From NCBI RefSeq assembly GCF_000337515.1, contig NZ_AOIQ01000010.1, forward strand, positions 1-64,000: a stretch of DNA of 64,000 nt. Direction: 5' to 3'. The translations under genes were made by a program, and so were the position numbers. The DNA is from Halovivax asiaticus JCM 14624 (GTDB lineage: Archaea > Halobacteriota > Halobacteria > Halobacteriales > Natrialbaceae). Under the pieces are notes generated by a model that had not been told where the DNA came from, did no database searches, and saw only the letters and a list, made by a program, of their open reading frames with translations. Positions 16,184 through 23,899 of the stretch are shown piece by piece. Every line of letters begins with the position of its first letter. The first letter of the stretch is position 1.

Positions 16184-17122
16184 TCACCGCGAGCCCGTCG
16201 GAAGCCGAATCGTGACGAGCGGCAGCGAGCCGTCGCTAGTTGCCTCCTCACCGGTGAGGAGAACGTCGAAAGCGCCGGTCACCGAGGTGTCATGGATGGA
16301 AGCGTCGCGCTCGCTGACGGTCGCCGTCACGCCTGCGCCCGTTCGAACAGTGGGTGGGCCGACCGACCCGCCGGGATCGGCCGACTCGGTCGAAACGGCA
16401 GCCTGATTCGCATCGGCAGCGACCGGCACGGACGGCTGATCGATGGCCGAGGACCGCTCGAACCGAACGAGAAGGCCCCCAGTCTGTCGAAATCCGGGAA
16501 CGGAAACCTGTCTGCAGCGGATGTGTGCTCCCGATCGGCCGTCGATCACCCCGAGACCGATCGAGTTCGGGCGCGCCCGCCGAGAGAGGACGATTTCGTA
16601 GTCTCCAGCCGAGATCACGGCGATTCCCGCAGCGTCGAGCGAGAGCGATCGCCGGAGGGTTGCTGTCGTCTCCCCCGTTTCCGATCGGGCCTGAAACGTC
16701 ACGGCGTCGGAGACGGGATCGAGCGGGTCTGCTGGCGAGATGGCGACAGTGTGAGCAGTGCCCGGGTCGAGCGCTGGGAGCGTGAGTGGCCGGGTGCCAC
16801 ACCGGGTCGTTCCCCCTCCGAGGCGACGAAATTGCAGCCCGTCGGCCCCAGACCGGAGGGAAACGGTCACCGACTCGGTCAGTCGATTCGCGATCGAAAC
16901 AGTCGCTGGTGCCGATCGCGAACCCTCGGCGTCGAAGAGGGTGCCACTCGCCTCGACGCCGTCACCGTCCTCGACGAGCCCGAGATACGCGTCCGCATCG
17001 TCGGCGGTGGCGACCGACACCCGTCTGTCGATCTCGGTGGTGGACGAGCCGAGGGTTCCGGCCGCCAGTAGCGTCCCCGAACCGAGGATGGCGAGCGCCG
17101 CTGCGCGTCTCGTGTACGTCAT
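16184..17122 (-). CDS. Secreted TasA/DUF1102-like protein, long form
   Basis: 312 residues. The N-terminus (TRRAAALAILGSGTLLAAG) is a signal peptide, followed by RRVSVATADDADAYLGL, the same signature found in the two shorter proteins at 18160 and 18680. Together they belong to the haloarchaeal DUF1102-like secreted group, whose N-termini resemble SipW-type substrates such as TasA. The rest is beta-rich and Thr/Ser/Ala-rich, with no catalytic motif. Its ATG overlaps the stop of the winged-helix gene by 4 bases. Being much longer than its relatives it could be a tip or minor subunit (inference). Confidence 0.7.
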   Translation of the reverse strand: MTYTRRAAALAILGSGTLLAAGTLGSSTTEIDRRVSVATADDADAYLGLVEDGDGVEASGTLFDAEGSRSAPATVSIANRLTESVTVSLRSGADGLQFRRLGGGTTRCGTRPLTLPALDPGTAHTVAISPADPLDPVSDAVTFQARSETGETTATLRRSLSLDAAGIAVISAGDYEIVLSRRARPNSIGLGVIDGRSGAHIRCRQVSVPGFRQTGGLLVRFERSSAIDQPSVPVAADANQAAVSTESADPGGSVGPPTVRTGAGVTATVSERDASIHDTSVTGAFDVLLTGEEATSDGSLPLVTIRLPTGSR

Positions 17123-17730
17123 CGGTGCTCCCGGTAATCAAATTCGACGCCGAGTCGATCCTCGTCGATTCCGAGGCGAGAGCGACGGGCGACGTACCGG
17201 TGTGCGAGTGCGAATACGCTGAACGAGACGACGACGAACACCGGGACTGCACGGGCTGGCAAGACGGTGAACGGAACCACCGAGAACGACGAGGCGACGA
17301 GGACGAGCACGGAGAGTGCCGCGAGTCCCAGATAGTAATCGCTCCACGGGAGTTCGCGGCCACGAACGACGTCCATGTAGATCTCGACGTTCTCGAGCGC
17401 CGCCGTCGGCTCGACCGTGCCACGGTCCCGATCGAAGTCGACGACACCCGACCGATCCAACTTCGGCAGGTGTGATTGCTGCAGTGCCGTGTAGACGCGT
17501 TTTCGATCCTTGCTCGAGACGTCTTCGAAGTCGAGTCCGTCTTCCTGCGCGGCGATCTCCTGAGAGATGGTCCCGATATCCAGGGTCGTTCCTTCGCGCA
17601 GGAGTGCGTTGAGGATGTGGCGTCGTCGACCGTTCGCCAACAACTCGAACAACTCGTCTTCCGTCAGTCGACGGCTCTCCGCCGGCGACGAGCCGCTCCT
17701 GTCGATCGTATCGTGTATCGTGCCCCCCAT
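17119..17730 (-). CDS. Winged-helix regulator with C-terminal membrane helices
   Basis: 203 residues from the ATG at 17730 (MGGTIHDTID); the upstream frame runs into the promoter. Residues ~15-105 form an ArsR-like winged helix (LTEDELFELLANGRRRHILNALL, then DRKRVYTALQQSHLPKLDRSGVVDFD), the layout common in haloarchaeal membrane-linked regulators. Two hydrophobic helices follow (LGLAALSVLVLVASSFSVV, AVPVFVVVSFSVFALAH) and a basic/acidic tail. It is the first gene of a two-gene operon and faces the TasA-like operon, so it is the obvious candidate regulator of that locus, possibly from the membrane. Confidence 0.8.
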   Translation of the reverse strand: MGGTIHDTIDRSGSSPAESRRLTEDELFELLANGRRRHILNALLREGTTLDIGTISQEIAAQEDGLDFEDVSSKDRKRVYTALQQSHLPKLDRSGVVDFDRDRGTVEPTAALENVEIYMDVVRGRELPWSDYYLGLAALSVLVLVASSFSVVPFTVLPARAVPVFVVVSFSVFALAHRYVARRSRLGIDEDRLGVEFDYREHR

Positions 17731-17754
17731 TCGGACGAAACCAACTATCGTCCA

Positions 17755-17764
17755 TAAAATAAAA
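17755..17764 (-). promoter_or_regulatory. TATA box of the winged-helix operon
   Basis: The minus strand reads TTTTATTTTATG across this spot, 25-34 bases before the ATG at 17730, in a clear AT-rich patch inside GC-rich surroundings. Confidence 0.55.
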
Positions 17765-17932
17765 GTAACTATTAATATCATTCGAGTTTTGTACCCCCAG
17801 TATTATAGTAGCGGACGGTACGGTCTGATCGGCGATAACTCGGGGCGACGGATGGCGTCAGTTGACCACACACACATCGAAGCGTAGGGACGGCATCGTC
17901 GAAGGCTGTCAGTGACCGCGCTCAACGGTTCG

Positions 17933-17946
17933 TTGACCCCAGTCAA
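17933..17946. promoter_or_regulatory. Palindromic operator candidate, box 1
   Basis: TTGACCCCAGTCAA: inverted TTGAC half-sites with a 4-base spacer. Same half-site as boxes 2 and 3. Confidence 0.5.
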
Positions 17947-17984
17947 TGTATCGCCCCAACCAATAATGGAAGAGAAACTATCAA

Positions 17985-17999
17985 TTGACCAGTGATCAA
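17985..17999. promoter_or_regulatory. Palindromic operator candidate, box 2
   Basis: TTGACCAGTGATCAA: half-sites TTGACC and GATCAA (one mismatch to GGTCAA) around a 3-base centre. Its centre is about 52 bases from box 1. Confidence 0.5.
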
Positions 18000-18059
18000 C
18001 GGGCCCCACATACTGCAGTGCGCCTCGTATTCGAGGGGTTGAGGAACCCACTCGAGTGG

Positions 18060-18074
18060 TTGACCGTCGGTCAA
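18060..18074. promoter_or_regulatory. Palindromic operator candidate, box 3 (perfect)
   Basis: TTGACCGTCGGTCAA is a perfect 6-3-6 inverted repeat about 75 bases from box 2 and 86 bases before the first TasA-like ATG. It sits just upstream of the TATA-like box at 18102, a typical place for an activator site. Confidence 0.55.
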
Positions 18075-18159
18075 TGCCGACCGGAGTCGAGTCCACTACC
18101 GTATTACAATACCCGTCTCACGGGTGGGTCGACTCGTCCCGGAAGGGGCGATACCAACT

Positions 18160-18675
18160 ATGCAACGACGTAAATTCGTAATCGGGATGGGAGCACTGGC
18201 ATCGGGCGCCGCTGCGATGGTCGGAACCGGCGCGTTCACCTCTGTGACGGCCGCTCGAGATATCGACGTCGCGGTTGCGGACGACGCATCCGCCTACCTG
18301 CGATTGAAGGGCACTGATTCACACTACGTCACCGACGACGGCGATGGTGGCACGCTCGCGCTCGACCTCAGCGGCGATAATGCAACGCCATCGGGCGGCT
18401 CGGGTGTGAACCCGAACGCCGTGACCGAGTTCGGTTCTCTGTTCGAGATTGCAAATCAGGGGACCCAGCCGGTCACCGTCGAGGTGACGAAATCCGGCCA
18501 GCACCCGGATGCAGTCGCGTTCGAGGACGGAAACGGCGACGCACTCGCCGACGGCATCGAGCTCGCCGTCGGTGAGAGCGCCGACATCAGCCTCGTCGTC
18601 GACACGACGGACAATGCGATCGACGTCGACGAACAACTGGTCGACTCGGTCGTGTTCCACGCGGTCGATAACTAG
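18160..18675 (+). CDS. TasA/DUF1102-like secreted protein 1
   Basis: 171 residues from the ATG at 18160; the longer frame begins upstream with unrelated sequence. N-terminus: QRRKFVIGMGALASGAAAM, then VGTGAFTSVTAARDIDVAV and a DDASAYLRL motif. The short positively charged start, glycine/alanine-rich helix and Gly-x-Ala-Phe junction resemble signal peptides cut by SipW-type peptidases (TasA, camelysin). The mature part is an acidic beta-rich domain with NPNAVTEFGSLFEIANQG and no catalytic motif. It is first in an operon that ends with such a peptidase, so it is a probable surface filament or matrix subunit (inference). Confidence 0.8.
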   Translation: MQRRKFVIGMGALASGAAAMVGTGAFTSVTAARDIDVAVADDASAYLRLKGTDSHYVTDDGDGGTLALDLSGDNATPSGGSGVNPNAVTEFGSLFEIANQGTQPVTVEVTKSGQHPDAVAFEDGNGDALADGIELAVGESADISLVVDTTDNAIDVDEQLVDSVVFHAVDN

Positions 18676-18679
18676 GACG

Positions 18680-19252
18680 ATGGAACGACGAACATTCGTC
18701 CTGAGTGCCGGTGCGATCGTCGGCGGTGGCGGCCTCGCACTCGGCACCGGGGCGTTCGACAGCGTCGAGGCCGAACGGGACGTCAGCATTACGGTCGCGG
18801 ACGACGCCGACGGCTACCTGAGTATCCGGCCACACGACGGTCCTAACGGCGCGTACGCGACGATGGACGACGGCGAGCTGGCAGTAGAATTGACCGACGA
18901 CAACGGCGCCGTCGCCGGCGACGGCGTCAATGCGAACGCTCTGACGGGGGTCGCGAACCTGTTCACGATCCAGAATCAGGGGACGAACGAGGTCGAACTC
19001 GCCGTCTCGCCGCTCACGTTCCTCGATGTATCCGGAAGCATCTTCCCGCCGAGCATCGACGGCGTTCTGGGCGTCTTGCTCGTCCCACAGAGCGGCAGTT
19101 GGAGTGTCGATCCCGACCGCGGGGTGCTCTCGATCACCGACCTCGCCCCAGGCGAGGAGACCGACTTCAGCCTCGCGGCCGTCGCGTTCCCGGAGAGCGC
19201 GATCGACGAAGTGGAAATCGACGACGAACTCCTGATCACTGCGGAGGCCTGA
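18680..19252 (+). CDS. TasA/DUF1102-like secreted protein 2
   Basis: 190 residues, ATG 4 bases after the previous stop. It shares the plan of its neighbour: MERRTFVLSAGAIVGGG, then GTGAFDSVEAERDVSITVADDADGYLSI, later NANALTGVANLFTIQNQGT. The two clearly arose by duplication but have diverged, mainly in the C-terminal half, where this one has an extra hydrophobic stretch (IDGVLGVLLVPQSGSW). Probably a second filament or anchor subunit exported and cleaved together with protein 1. Confidence 0.8.
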   Translation: MERRTFVLSAGAIVGGGGLALGTGAFDSVEAERDVSITVADDADGYLSIRPHDGPNGAYATMDDGELAVELTDDNGAVAGDGVNANALTGVANLFTIQNQGTNEVELAVSPLTFLDVSGSIFPPSIDGVLGVLLVPQSGSWSVDPDRGVLSITDLAPGEETDFSLAAVAFPESAIDEVEIDDELLITAEA

Positions 19253-19254
19253 CG

Positions 19255-19377
19255 ATGGATACTGCACCGACACTCGCCGACTACGAGGAACTGGCCGACG
19301 TCGAGATCGACCTGAGCGACACCGATCTCGACAGGGAAACGATCGACGCGGAACTGGAGCGGCTCTTCGACGCCTAA
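19255..19377 (+). CDS. 40-residue acidic peptide between TasA-like and peptidase genes
   Basis: ATG 2 bases after the stop of the second TasA-like gene, same strand. Reads MDTAPTLADYEELADVEIDL, then SDTDLDRETIDAELERLFDA; over a third of residues are Asp/Glu, it is probably helical, and there is no signal peptide. Tight spacing and a haloarchaeal codon pattern make it a likely real gene. No family recognised. It could be a cytoplasmic chaperone or regulator for the exported subunits. Confidence 0.6.
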   Translation: MDTAPTLADYEELADVEIDLSDTDLDRETIDAELERLFDA

Positions 19378-19613
19378 TCGAGGATAATCGTTCGCGGGTG
19401 GCTACCGCCCGTCGTCGGTCCAGCGGGCGTCTCGGCCGGCCGCGAAATCTTCGTGAATAGCGCCAACTCGACCGATCAGAGCAGTCGGTGGAAAAATCGA
19501 CCGACGATGTTCCTGTCCGGAACCGATCCCTGCCGATTCCGGACGTGGTCGCTATTGGGCCAACCGTAACCGAGGTCGGCAGTCCCTTCCTCCGTAAGAA
19601 CAATAGAAGGTAG

Positions 19614-19621
19614 AAATAAAT
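19614..19621 (+). promoter_or_regulatory. TATA box of the signal peptidase gene
   Basis: AAATAAAT in an AT-rich patch 26-33 bases before the ATG at 19647. The peptidase therefore has its own promoter besides any read-through from the TasA-like operon. Confidence 0.5.
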
Positions 19622-19646
19622 GTTTCAAAATAGCATACCGTAATAG

Positions 19647-20798
19647 ATGGGAATAGGCCGAGCGGGTCGGGGATTGGCGGTGGGAGCCGGAGTCGTCGTA
19701 TGCCTCCTGATAGTCGGCCAAGTACTCGGATACCCGATCCTGCTCGGATTCGTCGAGACGGGGAGCATGGAACCGGAGATTCCCGCTGGAGATGGGTTCG
19801 TCGCGATACCGACGGCCGTCAGTGACGACCCGGAGCCGGGCGACGTCGTGGTCTTCGACGCACGTGATATCCAGGGCGGTGGGCTGACCACCCACCGGAT
19901 CGTCGACGAAACCGGGGCTGGCTACGTCACACGCGGTGACGCGAATCCGTTTACCGATCAGGACGGTGGCGAACCACCGGTCACCGACGAGCAAATTCAC
20001 GCGACGGCCTGGCAGGTCGACGGGCAGGTCGTGACGATTCCACATCTGGGTACGGTCAGCGCGACGATCAGCCGGTGGGTCGACGGGGTGAACGGTGCCG
20101 CCACGGGCGCGCTGGGTGTCCGAAACGGTGTGGGGTCGAGCGGCGGCGCGGCGGTGCTGTTCGTCCTCTCGGTGCTGTGGTACGGCGTCGAGACCCTTCG
20201 TGACCGACGCCGCACGACCACACAGTCTCGCTTCGCGTCCGACGAATCTTCCCCGATCGATCCACGATATCTCTGTGCCGGGTTCGCGCTCCTCGTAGTC
20301 GTCGCAGGCGCCGGAGCTATGATCGTTCCCGGCGGCACACAGCACTACGACCTCGTCAGTGCCGAGTTCGATTCCGACGACCCGACGGTCGTCAGGCAGG
20401 GAACGACCGCGGAGACGACCTACCGGGTCGAAAACGACGGACTCGTCCCCGTCGTCGCGTACGTCGACGGCGGCGATCACGTGCAGGCCGGATCCGAACG
20501 GGTGACGGTTGGCCCACGCTCCGCGACCGACGTGGCGCTCGCGATCAGCGCCCCCGACCAGACGGGGTACTACCCGACCGCGGTGACCGAACAGCGGTAT
20601 CTGCGTCTCCTTCCGAGCCCAGTCCTCGACGCCCTCCACGGGGTGCATCCCGTGGTCGCACAGCTTGCAATCCTCGCCACGCTCGGCGGTGGAACGTACG
20701 GACTCGCCCGCGTCCTCTGGCGACGCGTAGACGCCAGCCCACGTGCGGGAGGACAGGCCCGAACCGAGCGTTCGCGACGGCGACCGAACCGACGGTGA
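19647..20798 (+). CDS. Signal peptidase I, ER/SipW type, with long membrane extension
   Basis: 383 residues. One N-terminal helix (residues ~11-30), then the S26 catalytic Ser40 in ETGSMEPEI, His83 in LTTHRIVDE (the His instead of Lys marks the ER/archaeal/SipW class) and Asp98 in TRGDANPFTDQD. Beyond the catalytic core come two helices (about residues 163-180 and 212-232), an external beta-domain with YRVENDGLVPVVAYVDGG and a final helix. Ordinary Sec11 proteins end near residue 200, so the second half is a special extension. It lies between TasA-like and DUF5305 genes and is probably dedicated to them. Confidence 0.88.
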   Translation: MGIGRAGRGLAVGAGVVVCLLIVGQVLGYPILLGFVETGSMEPEIPAGDGFVAIPTAVSDDPEPGDVVVFDARDIQGGGLTTHRIVDETGAGYVTRGDANPFTDQDGGEPPVTDEQIHATAWQVDGQVVTIPHLGTVSATISRWVDGVNGAATGALGVRNGVGSSGGAAVLFVLSVLWYGVETLRDRRRTTTQSRFASDESSPIDPRYLCAGFALLVVVAGAGAMIVPGGTQHYDLVSAEFDSDDPTVVRQGTTAETTYRVENDGLVPVVAYVDGGDHVQAGSERVTVGPRSATDVALAISAPDQTGYYPTAVTEQRYLRLLPSPVLDALHGVHPVVAQLAILATLGGGTYGLARVLWRRVDASPRAGGQARTERSRRRPNRR

Positions 20799-22078
20799 CT
20801 ACAATGGAACACGATCCGATCCCACACGAGACTGATTCGACCGACGACCGGCGGCTTCGATTCCGTGCGTTTCTCGCCGAGTACCGACCGATACTGGTCG
20901 TGGCGCTGCTCGCCACCGCCGCGATGGGCGGCTGGTTCTGCTACGGTGCCTACGCGGCCCAGCCGGAGACGACAGAGGTACGGACGGACGAAGCCTGGTC
21001 GCTCTCCGGCGAGTTCCACCACAGCGCCGAGGTTACAGACTCCACGACGCTCTACGCCGCGGGAACGGTCCTGGAGGATCGACCGCGGTACTTCACCGCC
21101 GTGACGCCGACGACCGACGGCGAGTACGCCGTCACCTACGACGCGCCCGACGGGACGGCCGACGTCGACATCTCGATCGATCGATACGTCCAGGCGGTCG
21201 AGGGGAACACGGTGTACTGGGAGTCGGCCGAACCGGTCGCGTCGACGACACAGACCGACGTCGAACCGGGTGAGACTGTCACCATCGACCTGGACGTTCC
21301 CGTCTCCGACGTCGTCGACCGTATCGAAACGATCCAGGCCGAACTCGGCGCGCGACCCGGCGAGAACAGCGTATTCCTGCAGGCCACCGTCTCGGTCGAC
21401 GGATCGATCGCGGGCGCCGAGCGCTCGACCAGTGAGACGCATCGGATCCCCATGACCATCGACGGCGGAACGTACGGGTTCGACGACGAGACCATAACGG
21501 AACCGTATCGGGACGCCGAAACCGTCACGGTGAGCGAGTCAGCCGGCCCAATCGAGTCGGTCGGTGGACCGCTTTTCCTGCTCGCCGGATTGGGCGGACT
21601 CGGCGGGGTTGCCGTCGCGACCCGACGGTATCACGCACTCACAACCGCCGAACGCGAGTGGCTCGACTACCGCGCCGACGTCGACGAACACGGCGAACTG
21701 GTCACTCCCGCGAGCCTTCCCGCCGCCGTCACCGATCGGCCTCGCGCGTCGGTCGAATCACTCGCGCACCTGGCCCAGCTGGCGATCGACCTCAGGACCG
21801 GGCTCCACTACGACCCACTCGAACGGACGTACCTCGTCGTGGCCGACGAGATCCTCTACAGTTACGAGCCACCGAGGCCGCCGCAGCGCCACTCGTCGGG
21901 GACTGTCGACGGGAGTTCCGCCGCTGGCCCCGATCGAGCGAGCAAGACAGGCGAGATCGTTCTCACGAGCGACGAATCGAGTGCCGCCGGATCAGCTCCC
22001 GACGAACCGGGCGATGGCGTTTTCACGGCACGCAGCGATGGGACCGGCTCGAACACTGACGGACCGCCAGAGTCGTGA
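20795..22078 (+). CDS. DUF5305-type membrane protein
   Basis: 427 residues from a GTG overlapping the peptidase stop by 4 bases; the ATG at 20804 is the alternative start. An N-terminal helix (ILVVALLATAAMGGWFCYG), a ~200-residue extracellular domain rich in Thr/Val strands (WSLSGEFHHSAEVTDSTTLYAAG, YAVTYDAPDGTADVDISIDRY), a second helix (GPLFLLAGLGGLGGVAVA), then a cytoplasmic acidic region. This matches the haloarchaeal DUF5305 family, which I recall as a frequent neighbour of such signal peptidases. It may be an assembly or anchoring factor for the secreted subunits. Confidence 0.75.
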   Translation: MTTMEHDPIPHETDSTDDRRLRFRAFLAEYRPILVVALLATAAMGGWFCYGAYAAQPETTEVRTDEAWSLSGEFHHSAEVTDSTTLYAAGTVLEDRPRYFTAVTPTTDGEYAVTYDAPDGTADVDISIDRYVQAVEGNTVYWESAEPVASTTQTDVEPGETVTIDLDVPVSDVVDRIETIQAELGARPGENSVFLQATVSVDGSIAGAERSTSETHRIPMTIDGGTYGFDDETITEPYRDAETVTVSESAGPIESVGGPLFLLAGLGGLGGVAVATRRYHALTTAEREWLDYRADVDEHGELVTPASLPAAVTDRPRASVESLAHLAQLAIDLRTGLHYDPLERTYLVVADEILYSYEPPRPPQRHSSGTVDGSSAAGPDRASKTGEIVLTSDESSAAGSAPDEPGDGVFTARSDGTGSNTDGPPES

Positions 22079-22141: not shown

Positions 22142-23899
22142 TTAGCCGTCCACCACGAACTCCTCCGTCCGAGATTCGGTGAGTTCGATCTCCCGTTCGT
22201 CGGCGATATTGTCGAAGCCCGGGTCGGCCACGTCGGGGGACCACACCTGGATCGTGATGTCCCCGACGAGTTCGGCGCCGCTCTCGCCGAGGCCATCATA
22301 CTGGAAGTAACCGTCCGCGTTCGTCTCCCGAGGGGCCGAACCCCAGCACGACGAGCCATCGGGTGAACAACTCCAGACGCAGGCGTGGGCGCCTTCCACC
22401 GGGTTTCCACTCGCGTCCACGACGCGTACGTCGAGGACGTGCGCTTGGGGGAGTTCGACGTCGCCGAGATCGACCACGCCGTCGATGTCTACGAGGTCGA
22501 AGTGGTAGATGTCCGGCATCCCATCTCGTTCCGGGGAGGTCGGATCGCCGTCTTGCTCCTGAATGTACCCGAGTGCGTAGGCTCCCGGGTTCTCGACCTC
22601 GGCGCTGAAGTACCCGCCGTGATCCGTGGTCGTGCGGTACTCCTTCGTCGGATGTTCGTTCGAGCGTCGCGGGCCCCGGATCTGTACTCGATCGCCAGTC
22701 GCCAGCTCGCCATCCGGGCCGGAAATCGTGCCGGTGATCGCGAGTTCGCCCGCTCCTCGATCGAGTACGAATTCCTCGGTCCGCGGTCCGTCGAGTTCGA
22801 TCTGGCGTTGGGCTGCGTAATTACCCGGTTCGGGGTCGACACCCGGTTCCCAGACCTGAATTCGGACGGCACCATGTAGTTCGATCCCGGTGACGTCGAG
22901 ATTCTCGTACTGGAAGTACCCATCAGCATTGGTCTGTTGTCCCCGTCCGATTTCCCAGGAATCACGGTGGAGGAAGTTGACGGGTGCACCCGCTATGGGC
23001 GTCCCAGCATCGTCGACGACGCGGACGTCAAGGACGTGGGCGTCCGGGAGTTCGATCGTTCCCAGTTCCAGGACTTCGTCTCCGACCTCAACCGGGTCGA
23101 GACTGTAGATGTCCGGCGAGCCGTCCCGTTCTGGCGTGTTCGTTTCCCGCTGCACCCGCTGATTATATCCCAGTGAGTATGTCCCCGGTTCGGTGAACAT
23201 CGTGTGGAAGGCGCCGTTTTCGTCGGTGTACGTGGTATCGAACTCGGGTGACCCGTCTTGGGGACCGAGCACGTCGAGTTGGTCGTCCGCTCCTGGATCA
23301 CCGTTCGCCGTGACGATCCGGCCCCTCATTCCCGGAACATCGCTACGTGGCTGTTCGGATGCTGTAAGATCGTGTTCGAAGTACCGGGCCCAATCTGCGG
23401 TATCTGGTATCGACTTGGTCCCAGCCCAGACGTCCGTCGTCTGGAACTCCCGCTGGACCACTGCGTGCCCTGCGACGACGACCTGCTCGAGACCGTCGTC
23501 GATACCGACGTCGGCGAATTCGATCGTATCAGTGGGACTGTCCGGTTGCGTTACCCGTTCGAATTGGTGTACGTGCGGGTTTCCGTTGTCGTTTCTGGGA
23601 ATGTCGGAGTCGGCTGATCCAACGTGGAGGGACGCCTGGCTGATCGTCCACGGCGAATCACCGGTCTCGAACGCCACCGTCAGGTGACTCCCCTCCTGTG
23701 CGATCGAGACCGTTCCAACGAGCTCGTCCCGGGCGGTGTATAGCCTCGCAGCGTCTTCGTCGGTCGCCGAGTCGCCGTCCGAATCGGTCCCGTTCGGGTC
23801 GTTCGTAGGAATGTCGCCGAGACAACCAGCCAGCGTCGCGGTCGCTAGCGTAGCGAATCCAGAAGCAATCGTCGACCGCCTGCTGAAGTGTTTGGCCAT
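22142..23899 (-). CDS. Surface lipoprotein with duplicated carboxypeptidase-regulatory-like domains
   Basis: 585 residues. RRSTIASGFATLATATLAGC is a signal with lipobox. After a short spacer and a ~130-residue N-terminal domain come two tandem repeats of ~180 residues. Each has a beta-sandwich of the CarboxypepD_reg type followed by a second one: (T/D)ENGAFHTMFTEPGTYSLGY with PDAHVLDVRVVDDAGTPI, and DHGGYFSAEVENPGAYALGY with PQAHVLDVRVVDASGNPV. Both repeats end in a TEEFV(L/V)D motif. No enzyme motif. It converges with the DUF5305 gene and has an AT-rich promoter region at 23930-23960. A surface scaffold or binding protein is likely. Confidence 0.8.
   Translation of the reverse strand: MAKHFSRRSTIASGFATLATATLAGCLGDIPTNDPNGTDSDGDSATDEDAARLYTARDELVGTVSIAQEGSHLTVAFETGDSPWTISQASLHVGSADSDIPRNDNGNPHVHQFERVTQPDSPTDTIEFADVGIDDGLEQVVVAGHAVVQREFQTTDVWAGTKSIPDTADWARYFEHDLTASEQPRSDVPGMRGRIVTANGDPGADDQLDVLGPQDGSPEFDTTYTDENGAFHTMFTEPGTYSLGYNQRVQRETNTPERDGSPDIYSLDPVEVGDEVLELGTIELPDAHVLDVRVVDDAGTPIAGAPVNFLHRDSWEIGRGQQTNADGYFQYENLDVTGIELHGAVRIQVWEPGVDPEPGNYAAQRQIELDGPRTEEFVLDRGAGELAITGTISGPDGELATGDRVQIRGPRRSNEHPTKEYRTTTDHGGYFSAEVENPGAYALGYIQEQDGDPTSPERDGMPDIYHFDLVDIDGVVDLGDVELPQAHVLDVRVVDASGNPVEGAHACVWSCSPDGSSCWGSAPRETNADGYFQYDGLGESGAELVGDITIQVWSPDVADPGFDNIADEREIELTESRTEEFVVDG

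Follow-up and report, generated by a model that had tools for sequence, protein, structure and literature searches.

A probable second, compact tafi-type locus in the genome of the haloarchaeon Halovivax asiaticus

Tat-fimbriae (tafi; Tat, twin-arginine translocation) of haloarchaea are reportedly the subject of Galeva et al. 2025 iScience 28:111793. Excerpts of PMC12687288 cite tafi as first described in 2025, and state that the Tat system exports their components and that TafA is the fimbrial core. The Protein Data Bank (PDB) contains an entry titled “Structure of Natrinema sp. J7-2 Tafi pilus” (9p0a). Here, we compare these systems with a locus of Halovivax asiaticus JCM 14624 located at positions 16184-22078 of a 64,000-nucleotide (nt) stretch of contig NZ_AOIQ01000010.1, referred to as the window, and we denote its genes A to G. 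A preliminary description, whose coordinates and open reading frames were correct on re-check, had proposed that this haloarchaeal locus encodes a filament together with a dedicated signal peptidase. That observation is real and was partly confirmed, being mostly as described; the proposal itself is well supported, with the Tafi pilus 9p0a as the nearest solved structure. Three features absent from that description are a DUF7344 gene between A and C, a gene for 40 amino acids (aa) after D, and operator-like palindromes. With a probability of about 0.72, we read the window locus as a second, compact tafi-type surface-filament locus in its genome. This kind of filament is already known, and what is new is the two-subunit subtype, protein E, and the palindromes.

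Two adjacent genes encode short fimbrillin-like subunits with an RR signal and a GTGAF junction: C (171 aa, 18160-18675, + strand) and D (190 aa, 18680-19252, + strand). When C alone was compared with PDB sequences, the sole match up to E = 0.1 was 9p0a_C (E = 1.6e-11), and the C-family profile matched 9p0a over its full length (E = 3.9e-34). The 9p0a chain is identical over 210 compared residues to a Natrinema gari protein (L143). An AlphaFold2 model of C (mean predicted local distance difference test score, pLDDT, 81.5) also had 9p0a as its best match in VIA-align (Z 10.1, root-mean-square deviation 2.6, 119 residues), with the Sulfolobus thread 7pnb at Z 7.9 and AbpA, the Pyrobaculum bundling pilus (7ueg), at Z 7.5, amid unrelated beta-sandwiches of similar Z. 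The 9p0a entry has 188 modelled residues of 215 and is numbered to 215, which would fit a chain whose modelled part starts with the Phe of GTGAF, provided that it has no internal gap.

The preliminary description had attributed a common set of motifs to three secreted proteins, the third being A (312 aa, 16184-17122, - strand), which comprises a fimbrillin-like domain at residues 26-165 and a second domain at 166-312. All three do have the RR start and the ADDA..YL motif (C, VAVADDASAYLRL; D, ITVADDADGYLSI; A, VSVATADDADAYLGL), whereas GTGAF is found in C and D only. At the junction A has GTLGSS instead, and most of its orthologues have T-x-G-[FYS]-S. Judged by sequence comparison, the likeness of C, D, and A exceeds chance: D is 48% identical to C (E = 1.3e-20), and residues 26-165 of A align with the C profile in hhalign (98.07%, E 1.2e-13; 90.97% without the N-terminal motif). 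Domain 2 of A gave no hhalign match to C (0.18%) or F (0.10%). Among 91 distinct homologues, drawn from loci picked by homology and with a profile that includes the GTGAF motif, 76 carry G[TS]GAF, 86 have F or Y as the fifth residue of this motif, and 88 have an R at position 4. These homologues and alignment A1 were used instead of alignment A2, in which the invariance of GTGAF is partly built in, since both scan pattern and filter demanded the motif. RR occurs in 20 of 20 sequences of A1, which is motif-level evidence for a Tat-type signal. In Pfam, C has a weak match to DUF1102 (23.9 bits, cut-off 22.2), and none of A, D, and F rose above a family cut-off. The NCBIfam model TafC aligns with A over residues 3-92 (28 bits), making A TafC-like in its N-terminal part; the C-terminal part of canonical TafC contains a Laminin_G_3 domain. 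Between this genome and G003, dN/dS is 0.49 for A, 0.07 for B, 0.10 for C, 0.13 for D, and 0.31 for both F and G, so that A changes fastest of the six, which fits a tip or adhesive role without proving one.

Such folds are common, many unrelated chains reaching Z 6-8, and no filament has been observed for the window locus. One might therefore suppose that these are secreted beta-sandwich proteins that stay monomeric at the surface or in the matrix, resembling pilins in nothing but signal and fold. We regard this as improbable, because 9p0a stands apart from the common folds at Z 10.1, the sequence match extends over the full length, and the signal junction is kept in the 76 of 91 homologues mentioned above.

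The gene content offers a further comparison with canonical tafi. Of 146 genomes from the order, 7 have a TafA match over its cut-off, among them G055 and G156 (L070), of the same genus. The canonical locus L070 has TafF, TafE, TafA, and TafC, each scoring above its cut-off, and also genes for DUF7344, a peptidase, and DUF5305, the last standing beside the tafi genes. Its DUF7344 gene precedes TafC with a 4-nt overlap, the same as that between B and A. The window locus thus has a DUF7344 gene overlapping a TafC-type gene, together with a peptidase, as in the tafABCDEF set, in addition to a nearby DUF5305 gene and homologous subunits with RR and GTGAF. Full-length homology to the solved pilin was found, as was the RR signal at the level of the motif. 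The differences are that the window locus has C and D instead of TafA and TafE, lacks TafF, has another gene orientation, adds E and the palindromes, and encodes subunits that score below the NCBIfam cut-offs.

The same genome contains another tafi-type locus (G000:C12:82427-87293; L041, 3380-9294), here called the C12 locus. Like the window locus, it has DUF7344, a short subunit (a single one, of 151 aa), a peptidase, and DUF5305; it differs in a 302-aa CARDB-type protein between subunit and peptidase and in the lack of E and of a palindrome at ≤1 mismatch. A tree was built from 75 of the 152 subunits found, namely the best-scoring among those that are named and 130-240 aa long. In it, the C12 subunit, canonical TafA, and 9p0a fall into one 11-tip clade (support 0.99), whereas C falls into a clade of its own (0.978), as does D (0.977), and both clades span the same 12 genomes. 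In this genome, the best match of the 9p0a chain is the C12 subunit (L041, 49.5%), not the window locus. From the tree grouping and this match, we conclude that the genome has two tafi-type loci and that the window locus represents a distinct subtype, with two subunits and no TafF.

From 72 named relatives we compared stretches no longer than 18.8 kb: 50 hold an F-like peptidase, 62 a DUF7344 gene, and 33 a DUF5305 gene, the number of F-like peptidases expected by chance in the 72 being about 0.8 (arithmetic from two copies per genome). The order A-B|C-D-F-G is kept in own-family genomes (G003, G001, G019, G026, G022, G016, G012, and G027), with an extra gene in some, and several own-family loci adjoin aconitase. 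Large TafF-like proteins lie between the short subunits and F in L055 (TafF, 44.8 bits) and L048 (blastp to the L055 protein). Other arrangements were also observed. In a genome of the same genus (G002; L060, 2953-14024), a larger set stands beside aconitase in place of the compact one, with a peptidase, a DUF5305 protein, fimbrillin-like proteins of 555, 201, 365, and 312 aa, and two DUF7344 genes. G004 has both the larger and the compact sets, without A, and a Haloarcula rara plasmid (L110, L111) carries fimbrillin-like genes of the same family, in two matching places.

Several observations weigh against a tafi-type filament locus. None of the NCBIfam Taf cut-offs is reached by the proteins of the window locus: the best scores are 65.6 bits for TafE (cut-off 155) and 35.3 for TafA (cut-off 190), both with C, and 28 for TafC (cut-off 410), and D likewise stays under the cut-offs for TafE (57.8) and TafA (27.7). 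TafF matched none of six proteins of the locus, and between D and F there are only E and a gap. In Foldseek, 9p0a came fourth for the C model, after two FimA variants and the Sulfolobus thread; the N-terminal strand of this model has low confidence, and donor-strand exchange is not visible in it. The structural model of A is poor (pLDDT 48.9). Within the C/D clade of 12 genomes, the peptidase is adjacent in 8 and about 9 kb off in G004, and L091, L092, and L094 had no peptidase in the stretch examined. Finally, we know of no experiment on the window locus. As regards the scores, the solved Tafi pilin misses the same cut-offs (TafE 77.3, TafA 52.8); C and D are therefore not TafA or TafE equivalogs, yet may still be tafi-type subunits.

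These scores also bear on a different arrangement, in which the window locus would have no filament of its own and C, D, and A would be minor subunits (adapters, tip) on a filament of the TafA-type C12 subunit. Both C and D score higher with the “adapter” TafE than with TafA, and it is the C12 subunit that is nearest to 9p0a in the genome and that groups with canonical TafA. Yet TafE outscores TafA on the solved pilin as well, so that the score is not telling, and the window locus has its own peptidase, its own DUF5305 protein, and palindromes found here only. We consider this arrangement unlikely and retain the reading of the window locus as a filament locus in its own right.

F (383 aa, 19647-20798, + strand) is a membrane signal peptidase with a C-terminal extension and is 46% identical to the peptidase of the C12 locus. 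It had been described as of the ER/SipW type (ER, endoplasmic reticulum). The archaeal/ER Ser-His half of that assignment holds, given that Ser40 and His83 are invariant in 33 of 33 sequences; the F profile matches human SEC11A (E 3.2e-5), and F scores 48.3 bits with TIGR02228 (archaeal signal peptidase I), slightly below the cut-off of 51.85. The SipW half is not supported, the model NF046067 giving 28.8 bits of the 190 that form its cut-off. The C-terminal beta domain of F (226-322) was considered as a fused fimbrillin-like anchor and ruled out at the sequence level (hhalign to C 1.10%, E 0.049). G (20795-22078, + strand; 427 aa from GTG or 424 aa from the ATG at 20804) is the membrane protein already recognized as DUF5305 (PF17231, 206.5 bits, cut-off 29). 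Adjoining it, at 22142-23899 on the - strand, is a gene for a secreted protein of 585 aa that has repeated domains and is probably lipid-anchored; no gene is called there in G003 (L042).

The preliminary description had likened the locus to bacterial TasA/SipW and to archaeal bundling pili. With Bacillus TasA/TapA/SipW it shares a dedicated signal peptidase adjoining the filament proteins and an aromatic residue just after the cut, an excerpt of PMC10269814 placing the TasA Phe at P2'. True kinship with the tapA-sipW-tasA operon could explain this common logic of secreted beta-sandwich proteins, a non-LepB peptidase, and a Phe just after the cut. It is, however, very improbable: Pfam gave no TasA/camelysin match up to E = 1, SipW remains far under its cut-off, and 9p0a is a much closer relative. 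The RR signals of the window locus are a further difference. The fold comparison of C had no TasA chain among the 50 matches listed, which is no proof, and we did not use it as evidence. AbpA pili and Sulfolobus threads likewise have beta-sandwich subunits, linked by a donor strand according to excerpts of PMC9715654 and PMC9674648, but gave no sequence match up to E = 10, and a Z below 8 can reflect a common arrangement only. The comparison hence stands as a likeness of fold and logic, the closest relative being tafi, already known, and not a new TasA system.

Upstream of C there are three copies of TTGACC-N2/3-GGTCAA (≤1 mismatch), with centres at -220, -167.5, and -92.5 from the C start codon. 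The first, TTGACC-N2-AGTCAA (17933-17946), is 52.5 nt, centre to centre, from the second, TTGACCAGTGATCAA (one mismatch, 17985-17999), which is 75 nt from the third, the perfect copy TTGACCGTCGGTCAA (18060-18074). A TATA-like sequence, TATTACAATA (18102-18111, + strand), picked by eye, is shared with G003 and G001, and G004 has a version of it with one change. At ≤1 mismatch, the N3 palindrome TTGACC-N3-GGTCAA has only two sites in the 3.24-Mb genome, both upstream of C, compared with 5 sites per strand for a reversed control pattern at one mismatch. With two mismatches allowed, the whole window has 3 matches against 2.13 expected, which is unremarkable. A degenerate pattern, TTGACYNNNRGTCAA, had 13 sites in seven genomes, 12 of them in the region upstream of C, and its control had 1. 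The argument for the palindromes therefore lies in the two real sites 75 nt apart and in the 13 sites versus 1, concentrated in one region.

Palindrome sites occur in 10 of 21 regions examined, and in multi-site regions their spacings (52.5, 75, 52.5, 74, 53, 42, 42, 55, 53, and 54) are mostly near whole turns of 10.5 bp. In the other 11, no palindrome was found at ≤1 mismatch; they include G012, G016, and G029, whose B is 58-64% identical to that of the window. B (17119-17781, - strand) is a DUF7344 winged-helix-type protein with C-terminal hydrophobic segments (PF24035, 89.5 bits, cut-off 27.8), 220 aa long as called; its start is probably at 17730, giving 203 aa, as orthologues begin at the inner Met. 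We propose B as the natural candidate binder of the palindromes, which appear to be a private on/off switch of the locus, a role that we infer.

E is a coding gene for an acidic protein of 40 aa (19255-19377, + strand), with GGAGG at 19243-19247 inside the 3' end of D; its start codon follows the D stop by 2 nt. As seen by tblastn, E follows D in relatives, and all 12 genomes of the C/D clade carry it, the divergent copies in L095 and L096 being assigned by position and motif. Relative to the D stop, the E start is at -4 to +7 nt in all 14 stretches where a pattern script located E, out of 15 given; the L042 copy (98% identity, 2 nt after D) falls outside the script's pattern, which was fitted to known members. 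Additionally, in a further genome, G022 (L047, 10303-11064), E is naturally fused, in frame, to the C-terminus of D. In all 15 pairs from six genomes, dN is below dS. Across 195 genomes of the order, E has matches in 7, of which 6 adjoin D-type genes and the seventh (E 0.0044), away from D, looks like chance. No family match was found for E in Pfam or NCBIfam, and it has no signal peptide. E is probably a folding or assembly partner dedicated to D.

A mechanism that would unite these elements begins with C and D being exported folded, probably via Tat, in view of their RR signals. Tat carries folded proteins, and the subunits must hence be held closed inside the cell. For comparison, the TasA monomer closes its own groove, according to an excerpt of PMC9674648. 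By analogy with TasA, F would cut C and D at the conserved GTGA|F junction and free an N-terminal strand. This strand would complement the beta-sandwich of the following subunit, allowing C and/or D to polymerise. A, with the same type of N-terminal domain and a fast-changing second domain, may be a tip or adhesive minor subunit, and G a membrane partner at the filament base. Through the palindromes that precede C, B probably regulates both divergent units, A-B and C-D-E-F-G, and E would be made together with D.

A more specific version is possible but doubtful. In it, E would be an obligate partner of D that binds it in the cytoplasm, fills its groove or holds its fold for Tat export, perhaps hitch-hikes with it, and is freed by the F cut. 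The G022 fusion would be a permanently joined form, and C-D-E would be switched by B via the helically phased palindromes particular to this locus. If this were true, E would be without a precedent known to us as an export or assembly factor dedicated to a Tat-exported filament, our paper searches not having been aimed at E.

The window locus represents a small system for testing how folded, probably Tat-exported tafi subunits avoid polymerising in the cell and what starts assembly, with two subunits, one peptidase, one candidate regulator, and one 40-aa partner. It also indicates that one genome can carry two different tafi-type loci, and its palindromes offer a direct route to finding when the filaments are made.

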